From the IMG/VR virus record IMGVR_UViG_3300046167_000169, positions 1-28,311 of that record: a stretch of 28,311 bases of DNA, one strand, 5' to 3'. Numbering within the stretch: position 1 is the stretch's first letter; each line of letters begins with the position of its first letter. Shown here in pieces: positions 10,070 to 14,740 of this stretch. The notes under the pieces were generated by a model. It did not search any database and was not told the DNA's origin. It saw only the letters and a list, made by a program, of their open reading frames with translations. Position numbers and translations under genes: made by a program. The DNA comes from a virus.

Positions 10070-10843
10070 ATGAGCAAATATAGACGTAAAGAAGAGCTAG
10101 AGGCTGATACCTCTTACTCTGAAGAATTGGAAGCACAGGTAGCTGTAGATTCTGAACCCAAAGAGCCAGAAGAGGCTTCCTTTAAAAAACGGTATGGAGA
10201 CCTTCGGCGTCACACCCAACAGTTGATGTCCCAGAAGGACCAAGAGCTAGAGAAGCTGAAGTCACAGCTTGATAGCGCCGCAAAGGGCCAGATCAAATTT
10301 CCCAAGACAGATGAGGAAATTGAGCAATGGACGAACAAGTATCCTGATGTTGCGAAGATCGTAGACACTATTGCACGGAAACGTGCCAATGAAGCCCTTG
10401 AAGAAGGCGAGAAGCGTCTAGGTCATTTGAAGGACTTGGAGACTAAGCTCACCAAAAAAGAAGCAGAGCAACAGCTAATGAAGCTGCATCCTGACTTCAA
10501 CGAGATCCGGCAAGACCCAGCCTTCCACGAATGGGTCGCCATGCAGCCACTGTACATCAATGATGCTCTGTATAAGAACAACACAGATGCCATGGCCGCA
10601 GCCCGTGCAATCGACTTGTACAAGGCAGACACCGGTAAGCGTAAGACTTCCTCAAAGAAGTCGGCAGCGCAGGCAGTAGGCCGATCAACCTCTGCAACAC
10701 CAGCGGCTACGGGAAAAGCTAAGTTTAGCGAAAGCCAAGTAGCTCGTATGTCTGATCGTGAGTACGATGCTAATGAGGAGGCAATCCTTGAAGCCATGAA
10801 GTCAGGTGCATTTACCTACGACATGACCGGCGGCGCACGTTAA
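10070..10843 (+). CDS. Capsid scaffold/assembly protein
   Basis: 257 aa, highly charged and largely helical, with coiled-coil segments at about residues 38-67 and 105-145 (Glu/Lys/Leu-rich) and a basic Ser/Ala/Lys-rich linker near residues 188-215. This composition, the length, and the position directly before the major capsid gene match podovirus scaffold proteins such as T7 gp9, though no motif is diagnostic. It guides coat protein into a prohead and then leaves. A good AGAGGA ribosome site precedes the ATG. It is followed by the large regulatory gap before the capsid gene. Confidence 0.8.
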   Translation: MSKYRRKEELEADTSYSEELEAQVAVDSEPKEPEEASFKKRYGDLRRHTQQLMSQKDQELEKLKSQLDSAAKGQIKFPKTDEEIEQWTNKYPDVAKIVDTIARKRANEALEEGEKRLGHLKDLETKLTKKEAEQQLMKLHPDFNEIRQDPAFHEWVAMQPLYINDALYKNNTDAMAAARAIDLYKADTGKRKTSSKKSAAQAVGRSTSATPAATGKAKFSESQVARMSDREYDANEEAILEAMKSGAFTYDMTGGAR

Positions 10844-10937
10844 TAAGTTTCCTATACGAAACCTTAATGTAACAAAGTGCTATAGCAACCTGTCCCTTTA
10901 GTGGCGCAAATAAGTGGCAGTTCTAGCAAATTAACTA

Positions 10938-10965
10938 TTGACAAAGTGAGCAATACTTATATGCT
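10938..10965 (+). promoter_or_regulatory. Candidate promoter P1 upstream of the capsid gene
   Basis: Perfect -35 TTGACA (10938-10943), a 16-bp spacer and TATGCT (10960-10965), which matches the -10 consensus at four of six positions. It is followed at once by the CTGTCCC/GGGGCAG stem-loop. Confidence 0.45.
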
Positions 10966-11004
10966 AGGGCTGTCCCTACTAGGGGCAGGTTATAGTAATA
11001 GCTA

Positions 11005-11033
11005 TTTACTAACTATAACAAACGTGCTATACT
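11005..11033 (+). promoter_or_regulatory. Candidate promoter P2 upstream of the capsid gene
   Basis: TTTACT (11005-11010), a 17-bp spacer and an extended -10 TGCTATACT (11025-11033). It shares the TGnTATACTT core with the promoter inside the dyad at 1370-1431. Predicted start near 11040, giving a leader of about 278 bases with three stem-loops. Confidence 0.55.
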
Positions 11034-11317
11034 TATTCATATGAACAACCTTTTACCTGTCTTTAACCAAAGATAGCTATGAGATTGTTTCTTCAATCTC
11101 GCTTACAGAACAAAGCCTCTATTACAGACTACCTTTGTATCTGTTTATATCCAGAAGAAATAATAAATTAGTCTACCAGTGTGGTGTGGCCCGTAGATAT
11201 GTATCATGGCCTGATACATCTTCTGCGCACCCATAACATTAACACTGCCACTTAATAATTACCTTCTGTTTTGTCTGTCGGCTAGTCCGACCTGCCATTT
11301 CACAAGGAGATATTACA

Positions 11318-12355
11318 ATGGCTTTTCCATCAGCGGGTGGGTACACAAACCTCCCAAATGGGGCGTTCAGCCCAGTCATCTACTCAAAAAAGGTACAAAA
11401 AGCCTTTAGAAACAGTTCAGTAGTAGAAGATATTACAAACACAGACTATGCTGGCGAAATCGCTAACATGGGCGACAGTGTTAAAATTATCAAAGAACCC
11501 GAAATCACAATCAACTCTTATGCCCGTGGCACTACGCTTGCGACACAAGACTTGGCAGACGCTGATTTTACTATGGTTGTTGACCAAGCAAACTACTTCC
11601 AGTTCGCACTGGATGACATCGAAGAAGCGCATTCCCATGTTTCTTTCATGGACCTCGCAACAGACCGTGCTGGTTTCAAACTGCGTGATGCATTTGACCA
11701 AGACGTTCTGGGCTACATGTCCGGTTACACATGGAACGGTTCTGCATGGGTTGCTCGTACAGCCGCTGCAGGTACTAAAGCAGATGCAGCAGCAGGCGCA
11801 GACGAATTGCTGGCAGCTAACAAGCTGACACAAGGTGCCTTCGGTGGTTCCACTGCAGCTAACTCCATTCCTGTAACTGCAGGTGGCGGTGCTGGTGCTT
11901 TGACATCACCTTTGGCTGTTCTGAACCGCATGGCTCGTCTTATGGACGCAGCTAACGTGGACACAGATGGTCGCTGGATCGTTGTAGACCCTGTCTTCAA
12001 AGAGATCCTGATGGACGAAGATGCGAAGCTGGTTAACGCTGACTTCGGTGGCGATGCAGAAGTACGCAATGGTCGCCTTCCCGGCACCATCCGTGGCTTC
12101 CGTGTATATCAGTCCAACAACCTTCCTTACAAAGGTACAGGCGCTGGTACATCTGCCGCTGCAGGTTCTGCAACTAACTTCGGTGTTCTGGTCGCAGGCC
12201 ATGACTCCGCAGCCGCAGTAGCTGACCAAATTGCGAAAACTGAGAGCTTCCGCTCACCAGAAACATTCGCAGATATTGTTCGTGGCATGCAGCTTTATGG
12301 CCGGAAGATTCTCCGCCCAGAAGGCTTGATCACAGCAAACTACAACTTGGCCTAA
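11318..12355 (+). CDS. Major capsid protein
   Basis: 345 aa behind a strong AAGGAGA ribosome site and a dedicated control region, as expected for the most abundant virion protein. The N terminus (SAGGYTNLPNGAFSPVIYSKKVQKAF) and the sections MGDSVKIIKEPEITINSYARGT, DQANYFQFALDDIE and DGRWIVVDPVFKEILMDE fit HK97-fold capsid proteins of short-tailed marine phages. An Ala/Gly-rich insertion (residues ~145-190) probably forms a surface loop. Third codon positions favour C, unlike most neighbours, consistent with high expression. It lies between scaffold and tail tubular A as in T7-like order. The frame is intact. Confidence 0.9.
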   Translation: MAFPSAGGYTNLPNGAFSPVIYSKKVQKAFRNSSVVEDITNTDYAGEIANMGDSVKIIKEPEITINSYARGTTLATQDLADADFTMVVDQANYFQFALDDIEEAHSHVSFMDLATDRAGFKLRDAFDQDVLGYMSGYTWNGSAWVARTAAAGTKADAAAGADELLAANKLTQGAFGGSTAANSIPVTAGGGAGALTSPLAVLNRMARLMDAANVDTDGRWIVVDPVFKEILMDEDAKLVNADFGGDAEVRNGRLPGTIRGFRVYQSNNLPYKGTGAGTSAAAGSATNFGVLVAGHDSAAAVADQIAKTESFRSPETFADIVRGMQLYGRKILRPEGLITANYNLA

Positions 12356-12364
12356 TGGTTAAGC

Positions 12365-12386
12365 GGGGGCAGGGCAACTTGCCCCC
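12365..12386 (+). terminator. Terminator-like stem-loop after the capsid gene
   Basis: GGGGGCA (12365-12371), an eight-base loop and TGCCCCC (12380-12386) form a perfect, very GC-rich seven-pair stem, ten bases after the capsid stop. It is followed by AACACCCTTCTTT, a weak T-tract. Position matches partial terminators that reduce expression of tail genes relative to capsid. Confidence 0.6.
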
Positions 12387-12410: not shown

Positions 12411-13101
12411 ATGCCTAGTACTTACCTAGATTTATGTAACATGGTGCTTCGCCGCATCAATGAGGTAGAGATCGCCGCCGATGATTTTTCCATCGGTTCG
12501 TGGCGTTCAGGCTTTGGTTAAAGATGCGGTCAAGGCCGCTATTGCCAAAATCAATCAAGCTGAGTTTGAATGGCCCTTTAATGCTTCTGAGCATACACAG
12601 GTTTTAACACCCGGTCGTACAGAATACGATTGGCCTGATTATTTTAAGATTGCCGACTTTAATACTTTTCAGATCCAGAAGGACAGTTCTTTAGGCACAA
12701 GCTTTAAAACCTTAAAAGGTATTGAGCGTGATGAATGGTATTCTCAACACCGGGACAGTGACTACGATGCAGGTGCCACAGGTCGGTCTATTCCTGACTA
12801 TGTATTCCCATCACACGGCACAGGCTTTGGCGTATCACCATCACCGGACAAGGCGTACAGTGTGCGCTTTCGGTATTATCTGAACTACGCCGATCTTACA
12901 GCGTACAGCGATGTATCCCGCATCCCAGCCAGCTTCGATACCGTTATTGTGGATGGTGCTTTGTACCACCTGTACATGTTTAAGGATAACCTAGAGGCCG
13001 CTAATGCAGCCTACGGAGCTTTCCAAGCAGGTCTTAAAGATCTGCAGACCCTATTCATCAACAGCTACGAATACATCCGTGATACAAGGATCAAGTTCTA
13101 A
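12411..13101 (+). CDS. Tail tubular protein A (T7 gp11-like), +1 frameshift
   Basis: Restored length about 229 aa. ATG 12411 follows AAGGA (12400-12404). The first 24 codons (PSTYLDLCNMVLRRINEVEI...) match the usual start of podovirus tail tubular A proteins. The frame then breaks in the T run 12485-12489; dropping one T continues as DDFPSVRGVQALVKDAVKAAI. The rest is intact: NASEHTQVLTPGRTEYDWP and RIPASFDTVIVDGALYHLYMFKDN. This protein forms the gatekeeper ring between portal and nozzle. The stop codon overlaps the tail tubular B ATG by one base, as in a coupled pair. Confidence 0.85.
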
Positions 13102-14740
13102 TGGCTGACGAAATCCAGAGTTTCAAAGTTGTATGTTCTGGTGGTCTAAACAGCAACGAAAACCATTTGTTTCTGTCTGAGGCAGCATCCGGTGCAGCCA
13201 CACGCTTAGTTAACTACGAGCCTAGCCTTTATGGCGGGTATCGCCGCATTGAAGGGTATACGCTCTTAGGTGGTCTCAATGTAGAGGTAGGCGCTGGCGT
13301 AGCCGAAGGTCCGGTTCTTTGTGTAGCGATTTACAAGAACGAACACATTGGTAATCCGTACATCATTGCAGCCCGTAAAGATGTTGGTGCTAACACCTAT
13401 AAGTTTTACAAGTTCATAGACTTTGTTGGCTGGCAGGTAATGACCAACAGCCTTACGCTCAACACCACAGATGGTGTTCGTACAGTTAAGAAGCTGCGTC
13501 ATACTCAGTTTGACTTTGGCAATGGCTCTAACATCATCTTCGTAGACGGTGTTAACAACGCAATCATCTTTGATGGTCAAAACTGGAAACAGCTTAACAG
13601 CACCAATACTGGCACTTCGTCCAGCCCCGGTGGAGACCAGATCCTTAACGCCCCAGCAATTGTGGAAGTCTTTGAGAACCACATTTTCTTAGGGGGAGAT
13701 CTAACCTCCCGTGCTGTTATATGTCACTCAGCACCTGCAGATCCATATAACTTCACTGCAGGCATCCGGTGGTGGTCAGATCACTCCGGGCTTTAACGTA
13801 GTTCAGTTCAAACCTTTCCGTGACGATCTATTTGTATTCGGTATTAACGGCATCAAGAAGGTAAGCCCTGATATTACTGCAGGCTTTGTTCTTGATCAGG
13901 TCACAGCCAATGTAGGTTGTGTTGCACGGGACAGCGTACTGGAAATTGGTGGGGATCTAATCTTTCTATCACCAGAAGGTTTCCGCCCTGTTGCTGGTAC
14001 ATCCCGCATCGGTGACGTTGAGATCCAGACACTATCAAAACCTATTCAAGTTACTCTGGTTGATATGATCCGCAACTACGACATGGATAACCTGAACGGT
14101 GTTGTGATCCGTGGTAAGTCTCAGGTTCGCTTCTTTGTAGATGATGATGGTACTGAGGTTACAGACAGCTACGGCATAATTGGTGGGCTTGCAGATCAAC
14201 AGGGTTCCATTGGTTGGGAGTTTGGAGAGCTTACAGGCATCCGGGCGTCATGCTGCACATCTGATTACATCGGGCGCACAGAGTTACATTCTGCATGGCG
14301 ACTATGACGGTAAAGTGTATCGCCAAGAGCAAGGCACCAGCTTTAATGGTGGTGATATTCTCGCTGTATACGCCACGCCTTACCTAGATTTTGGTGACAC
14401 AGAAACCCGCAAGACCATGCGCAAGGTAAACACCTTTGTTCGTGCTGAAGGTCCGGTAGAGGTCTTTCTGTCCATGGCCTACGATTGGGGCGACTACACC
14501 ACATCACGCCCCTCTTCATACTCCCAAACCAGCGCAGGTGGTCCTGTGGAGTACGGCGGAAGAAACATTGACTTTGCCGGTGCGAACATCCTGTACGGCG
14601 GTAACTCCAAACCAATTATGACTTCAGACATTCAAGGATCTGGCTTCTCCTCACGGGCGACCTTCGTGACGGTTGGGCAATCAGAACCTTATTCGATCCA
14701 AGGTCTAGTATTTGAATTTTCGATTTCAGGAAGGCGATAA
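13101..14740 (+). CDS. Tail tubular protein B (T7 gp12-like nozzle), two +1 frameshifts
   Basis: Restored length about 545 aa. It begins with a GLNSNENHLFLSEAASGAATRLVNYEPSLYGGYRRIEG region typical of podovirus nozzle proteins. The first frame ends at TAA 13794-13796; one extra G at 13761-13762 explains it, restoring FTAASGGGQITPGFNVVQFKPFRD. The second ends at 14307; one extra G in GGG 14272-14274 restores SDYIGAQSYILHGDYDGKVY. The C-terminal part (YATPYLDFGD, RKTMRKVNTFVRAEGPVEV) is intact. The protein forms the tail nozzle and carries fibre-attachment surfaces. It is coupled to tail tubular A in front and followed by the fibre gene after three bases. Confidence 0.88.

Follow-up and report, generated by a model that had tools for sequence, protein, structure and literature searches.

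The window, i.e. the whole stretch of 28,311 bases that we analysed, is a single virus record and represents a 28.3 kb fragment of an HMO-2011-type phage, a group described as dominant and broadly distributed among marine viruses in the available text of PMC9038755. It carries the coat protein of this group and a like gene order around it: in the isolates as in the window, portal-type and unnamed genes are followed by the coat gene and then by tail-type genes. The major coat protein gene (11318..12355, + strand; 345 aa) matches phrog_267 (major head protein, 1e-60) and has no Pfam match at E ≤ 0.001. Its product shares 88% identity with the coat of Roseobacter phage CRP-235 (59–88% with those of eight Roseobacter CRP phages), 56.5% with that of Puniceispirillum phage HMO-2011, and 50–51% with those of three further CRP phages. 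The upstream neighbour is an ORF of 257 aa (10070..10843, + strand; phrog_13678, function unknown), which has a syntenic counterpart before the coat gene in the isolates and is a putative scaffold gene, so named for this position. Between the end of this ORF at 10843 and the start of the coat ORF at 11318 lie 474 non-coding nucleotides (10844–11317), as a previous sequence-only reading had pointed out; no ORF of at least 50 aa on either strand overlaps them. The gap is retained within the HMO-2011-type group, with a length of 233 to 602 nt in the relatives whose upstream ORF could be placed, and aligning the gaps of close relatives reveals short invariant blocks that are complementary to one another.

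The main feature of the gap is a structured RNA of ∼165 nt (11103–11268), with a promoter-like site on its 5' side and a ribosome site on its 3' side, which is made of a hairpin (A) and a long rod holding two further stems (B and C). Hairpin A (11105..11144, + strand) has the internal loop CC (11116–11117)/CTAC (11129–11132) and is found in both the consensus fold of relatives and the fold of the window. The rod, or domain II (11152..11268, + strand), is closed by an outer stem CAGAAG (11152–11157)/CTTCTG (11263–11268) that is present in the covariance model (see below) and in the window fold. Inside the rod, stem B (11170..11252, + strand; consensus and window folds) pairs AGT-CTAC-CAGTGT (11170–11182) with ACACTG-CC-ACT (11242–11252), and stem C (11187..11233, + strand) pairs TGG-CC-CGTAGA (11187–11197) with TCTGCG-CAC-CCA (11222–11233) in the consensus register, from which the GG/CC is displaced by one in the window's own fold. 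At the tip of stem C, the window fold places a variable apical stem-loop, ATGTATCA-TGGCC-TGATACAT (11199..11219, + strand). The minimum-energy fold of the window has the same helices as the consensus from relatives, and the presumed transcript (11040–11317) folds at −69.4 kcal/mol as compared to −50.0 ± 4.5 kcal/mol for shuffled sequences (z = −4.28; none of 200 shuffles was as good).

Smaller elements flank this RNA. On its 5' side are a first leader hairpin, CTGTCTTT/AAAGATAG (11057..11076, + strand; window fold, with counterparts seen by eye in closer relatives), and the hairpin GAGATTG/CAATCTC (11081..11100, + strand); on its 3' side are hairpin D (GTCGG/CCGAC, 11277..11291, + strand; window fold, with a hairpin of other sequence seen by eye at this place in many relatives) and, after it, the Shine-Dalgarno-like AAGGAG (11304..11309, + strand; window sequence). 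The sequence-only reading had counted four stem-loops in the gap; helices are indeed present, but they number more than four, and those it named do not include the main ones, i.e. hairpin A and the rod that holds stems B and C. Both inverted repeats that it did name exist. The first (ATGTATCA at 11199–11206 with TGATACAT at 11212–11219) forms a real hairpin but turns out to be the variable tip of stem C within a far larger conserved structure, and the second (GAGATTG at 11081–11087 with CAATCTC at 11094–11100) is present in the window but was recognised, by eye, in closer relatives only.

Using a sequence-only alignment of 20 sequences (the window and 19 relatives) as input, de novo consensus folding returned stems A, B and C, and for 14 of the 23 pairs one sequence or more had both partners replaced. 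For the 35-pair structure on the 20-sequence alignment, 18 pairs were double-changed, as compared to 10.7 in shuffles (none of 500 reached 18) and 7–9 with slid partners; these include figures for the outer stem that are lowered because this stem is out of register in seven of the 20 rows. The numbers rise in alignments fitted to the covariance model: 33 of 34 pairs are double-changed in 77 distinct rows (14–17 with slid partners), all 34 pairs are changed on both sides in the held-out matches (14–19 with slid partners), and on a coat-protein tree of 75 sequences there are 137 same-branch compensatory changes, whereas 5000 permuted pairings average 10.4 and never exceed 46. These three alignments lean to the structure of the model, unlike the 20-sequence alignment. 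G-U cells outnumber C-A cells in three alignments (106 to 66, 48 to 31 and 100 to 27), an excess that leans towards the coat strand, although the model to which two of these alignments were fitted was itself built on that strand.

The covariation check that had been proposed along with the sequence-only reading therefore finds base pairing conserved with compensatory change, as expected of a structured cis-acting mRNA leader, and the claim of a non-coding capsid control region with a leader-type RNA is upheld. Comparison of the relatives establishes, at the level of sequence, that 11103–11268 is a conserved structured RNA under selection on the strand of the coat gene; in many phages of the sea and of soils, its structure has been retained ahead of the coat gene despite changes in the letters. 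An ordinary intergenic promoter region with hairpins that arose by chance would fit the chance number of promoter-like and terminator-like sites in the window, but it is refuted by the covariation, and the held-out model matches and the constant position of the RNA (both below) also speak against it, leaving it a negligible probability.

One asymmetric internal loop is found three times in this RNA, with a short strand that is CC or AC and a long strand that is mostly HYAC, or CAC in stem C. In A and C the 5' strand of the loop is the short one, in B the 3' strand, i.e. the loop is used once in the opposite sense. Tallied over the 77 distinct rows (a few are gapped there), the loop of hairpin A has CC (50) or AC (23) versus CTAC (46), ATAC (10), CCAC (6), ACAC (6) and few others (the exceptions to HYAC being GTAT in three rows and GTAC in one); that of stem B has CTAC (28), CCAC (27), TTAC (9), ACAC (7) and few others (exceptions: TAAC in two rows, CAAC and ACCAC in one each) versus CC (58) or AC (19); and that of stem C has CC (70) or AC (6) versus CAC (42), ATAC (17), ACAC (11), TTAC (6) and CCAC (1). 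The helices flanking the loops vary freely in sequence. The repeated loop may be a module that binds a protein or serves tertiary packing, and its threefold occurrence among freely varying helices predicts a specific binding protein. C-loops, one class of internal loops, are C-rich and are characterised by particular non-canonical contacts between bases in three dimensions. The C-loop motif named in PMC3854523 and PMC12510878 resembles the loop found here in being asymmetric and recurrent, a likeness that we take as a lead only, the present loop being known by sequence alone; the available text of these two sources gives no sequence rule for the motif.

To search for this RNA we used covariance models; a hand-written motif descriptor was dropped in their favour since it was too strict (it was found upstream of the coat gene in 59 of 105 loci, with six matches elsewhere). 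The first model (R1) gave 81 matches in 97 loci at E ≤ 1, which were used to build a second model (R2). R2 matches 88 of the 97 loci and, with the cut-off at E ≤ 1, has no further match in the 700,290 bases (both strands) that were scanned (model E-values are rough because the calibration was short). As 81 of these 88 loci were already in the model alignment, the independent test is the set of 90 held-out loci only, which consists of 80 loci retrieved by using the phiM6 coat (from a Sinorhizobium phage) as query and 10 (out of 16) from genome contigs; R2 matches 64 of these 90 loci, which were not used in building it. Together this makes 152 matches (88 + 64), every one of them on the coat strand and 23–127 nt before the coat start, which is the constant place and strand before one gene expected of a cis-acting leader. 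Twenty-three records were searched over their full length: 17 contain a single match and none contains two. The isolates carrying the leader RNA include CRP-235, CRP-3 and phiM6, in which the conserved pre-coat RNA offers a testable handle on late-gene control.

A leader that is processed to a separate, trans-acting RNA (a small RNA acting on host or phage mRNAs, a sponge, or an assembly RNA), in line with the small RNA suggested in the sequence-only reading, would leave the same traces as a cis-acting leader. The RNA is compact, strongly structured and present in at most one copy in each of the 23 records, as such an RNA might be, but trans action makes the pre-coat place kept by 152 of 152 matches unnecessary, and conservation sits in the internal loops, with no conserved unpaired seed noticed in an informal look; we consider a trans-acting RNA unlikely.

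The whole records in which R2 has no match are CRP-207, CRP-2, CRP-603, HTVC115P, HTVC033P and ctYwJ313; B- and C-like elements can be seen by eye in the first three. Among the nine loci missed in the set of 97, two (L036 and L053) are truncated on the 5' side, two belong to pelagiphages whose gaps measure only 58 nt (L091) and 31 nt (L092), four (L069, L089, L096 and L097) have B-/C-like elements by eye only, and one (L093, phage ctYwJ313) has an HNH ORF in the region. In this last locus, the HNH-type nuclease ORF (2210–2779) stands between hairpin-A-like and B/C-like stretches, as if it had been inserted in the leader RNA (by eye). In the held-out set, 26 of the 90 loci are unmatched; we inspected 17 upstream stretches, and most are B-/C-like by eye only, L259 not clearly so. 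In the Rhizobium phages RHph_N3_19 and RHph_I3_11 the gap is 155 nt long; stems B and C, but no other part, are readable there by eye, and R2 gives a single weak match, in one phage of the two (E = 0.12).

We also searched IMG/VR independently of the coat gene, using a 20-letter gapped pattern, which returned at least 119 stretches. Among the 119 matches listed, 101 (70 of 80 and 31 of 39) have a coat homologue downstream, and none of the other 18 fits the model; by a rough estimate, chance would yield a dozen or so matches to such a pattern, given the size of the collection. Three of four genome bins have a match, and in G010 there are two, each on its own contig, so the single-copy rule holds per phage record and not per bin. 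Host homologues were sought in the class to which G008 (the assembly, titled Pelagibacteraceae, that holds L226) belongs, and none of its 190 genomes gave a match at E ≤ 0.01, an empty result that is uninformative as the search had no positive control. HMO-2011-like coat contigs (L219–L224 and L227) were also found in bins named Flavobacteriales, Neomarinimicrobiota, Euryarchaeota, Bacteroidetes and Blastopirellula; these are probably mis-binned phage contigs.

The pelagiphage-type loci give a different picture: none of 80 matches (seven of them begin inside the coat gene and could not show the RNA), and the gap before the coat gene is 28–43 nt in 42 of the 43 loci that we looked at (the other was not measurable). 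Eight further phages with related coats, of which four are pelagiphage isolates and four infect gammaproteobacteria, likewise have no match (0 of 8), and their annotated gaps are 16–58 nt. Among named phages, the leader RNA is seen in those of Roseobacter, SAR116 and Rhizobiales hosts. Since SAR11 and gammaproteobacterial phages have related coats and lack the RNA, it is not required for making such a coat. The same observation bears on autoregulation, in which the coat or scaffold protein would bind the loops and repress coat translation when assembly lags, a special case of the protein-bound leader proposed below. The exclusive coupling of the RNA to the coat gene and the three like sites per RNA would suit autoregulation, but the related coats of pelagiphages and gammaproteobacterial phages do without the RNA, and coat protein is required in large excess, which makes this special case quite improbable.

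Group I introns (RF00028, 50–83 bits) are found in the coat gene of close relatives, including L016 (2011–2222), L017 (4155–4373), L030 (4156–4367) and L031 (4156–4367), and also L114, L117, L140, L156 and L227. In L016, L017, L030 and L031 the coat frame stops after 55 codons, at the same place; the coat gene of the window has no such break.

Candidate promoters had been proposed at 10938 and 11005, and both hexamer pairs are present: TTGACA-16-TATGCT (10938..10965, + strand) and an extended −10 site, TTTACT-17-TATACT with TG before the second hexamer (11005..11033, + strand). By themselves they are at chance level (four promoter-like sites in 1.3 kb, as compared to 2.0 ± 1.5 in shuffles), and the upstream site is seen in the closest relatives only (alignment, by eye). 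What supports the 11005 site is its conservation, like sites being found in relatives: a promoter-like site reaches p ≤ 0.05 in 52 of 76 distinct upstream stretches, and the 24 that miss this level include that of the window, whose own best site has p = 0.07 (not significant). In 30 of the 76 stretches the best-scoring −10 hexamer (some scores are poor) ends 10–22 nt before the model start, which places hairpin A near the 5' end of the transcript there. A hairpin CTGTCCCT/AGGGGCAG can form between both promoter sites (10890–10897 and 10970–10988 in the window), and CTGTCCCT is present twice, 80 nt apart.

At the other end of the gene, a strong hairpin directly follows the coat stop codon (12365..12386, + strand; seen in the window sequence and in the flanks of relatives). 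A post-coat hairpin of at least eight pairs is found in 69 of 71 distinct flanks, as compared to 14 of 1420 shuffled ones, and 22 of the 69 carry a T-rich tail; a simple terminator scan of the window did not list the hairpin at 12365–12386. Since most relatives have a promoter-like site and nearly all flanks have this hairpin, the coat gene looks like a transcription unit of its own with structured ends.

Antitermination RNAs of the put/nut type act in cis to suppress termination by RNA polymerase. The put RNA of phage HK022 is found in early operons, where it acts on the polymerase, and consists of two simple hairpins. It is similar to the coat leader RNA in that both are phage RNAs just behind a promoter with conserved features in a stem-loop context. 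In a put-like antitermination, the nascent leader would bind RNA polymerase and cause readthrough past the post-coat hairpin or terminator into the remaining structural operon, thereby setting the coat:tail ratio; the promoter-like site upstream, the long structural gene block and the conserved hairpin after the coat gene are consistent with this, and conserved loops with variable helices suit an RNA that binds polymerase or a factor. However, only 22 of the 69 post-coat hairpins have the T-rich tail, the RNA is a single copy before a single gene, and it differs from put in that it is not two simple hairpins and precedes the coat gene instead of lying in early operons. An action on the polymerase is hypothetical here, and we hold antitermination to be improbable.

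The reading that we favour, with a probability of roughly 0.55, is that the RNA is a cis-acting leader of the coat mRNA that is bound by a protein at its loops and sets mRNA lifetime and/or translation. Host RNA polymerase with a sigma-70-type factor would start near 11040 (from the 11005 site), and the RNA would then make up the 5' leader of a coat mRNA that is mainly monocistronic and has its 3' end at the post-coat hairpin. A host or phage protein would recognise the repeated internal loops and, once bound, would set the lifetime of the coat mRNA and/or its translation rate, with the outcome that coat protein is made in the needed excess over the neighbouring late proteins. Judging from the sequences, the leader RNA probably governs how much coat is made. 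A more specific form of this reading, which we put forward tentatively as possible but rather doubtful, is a new RNA family in which a docking rod of inverted copies of the loop module (a core in B and C, with a third copy in A) would be bound by a dedicated protein to form a ribonucleoprotein switch timing or scaling coat synthesis in phages of Roseobacter, SAR116 and Rhizobiales hosts. If this is true, the absence of the RNA in SAR11 phages would point to a host protein as the partner, one that SAR11 does not have.

Other kinds of control element were considered and rejected. A translational switch would need conserved pairing with the ribosome site, and none was found. Pairing of ATCTC+CTT (11096–11104) with the ribosome site (11304–11311), which the window's own fold allows in competition with GAGATTG/CAATCTC, was discarded since the GAGATTG hairpin is absent, by eye, in many relatives, and pairing of a GCCAT before the ribosome site with the start ATGGC was discarded since ATGGC is near-invariant through its coding of Met-Ala and GCCAT is not universal. 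For a terminator-type riboswitch or attenuator, no terminator-like site was found between the RNA and the coat gene (window 10500–11800; window only), and no tRNA or tmRNA was found.

We compared the RNA with known systems. The window has no match in Rfam 15 at gathering score, and eight relatives have none at E ≤ 0.1; within the gap, the only hit at E ≤ 5 is snoZ157, which lies on the opposite strand and scores 15.8 bits where 55 are needed for gathering, so a known RNA family was rejected. In phage T7, a leader with a promoter and an RNase III site precedes the major capsid gene (gene 10) and leads to high levels of capsid mRNA. That leader is similar to the one described here in having a structured leader and a promoter directly before the major capsid gene, and differs in that T7 relies on a phage-encoded polymerase and has just one RNase III hairpin, whereas here we see a host sigma-70-type site, a larger RNA and three conserved loops. 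According to the available text of Weinberg et al. 2010 (PMC2864571), the manA and wcaG RNA motifs are likewise structured RNAs that comparative genomics revealed in phages and metagenomes from the sea, and for which a role in control has been suggested; they are found with metabolic genes in T4-like cyanophages, whereas the coat leader RNA matches no Rfam family. The words 'promoter' and 'non-coding' are absent from the available text of PMC9038755, as are 'promoter' and 'noncoding' from that of PMC6918029; the accessible portions of the literature searched contained nothing on late-gene control in HMO-2011-type phages. No description of the coat leader RNA was found in the literature searched. 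A structured phage mRNA leader is a known kind of element; this leader RNA and its repeated loop seem to be new. There is reportedly a 2023 catalogue of candidate structured RNAs in viruses, which may hold the leader RNA unnamed.

Some further features were noticed elsewhere in the window. The SU10-type adaptor gene after the coat gene has a frame broken near its start (12411–12490), with an N-terminal-like part in another frame, which may stem from an error in sequencing or assembly. The record probably contains more frame breaks, as three overlapping ORFs (13101–13796, 13711–14307 and 14180–14740) are found versus a single tail gene of 1680 nt in CRP-235. At 831–1367 the window has an ORF with a T5orf172 domain, which may encode a GIY-YIG-like nuclease.
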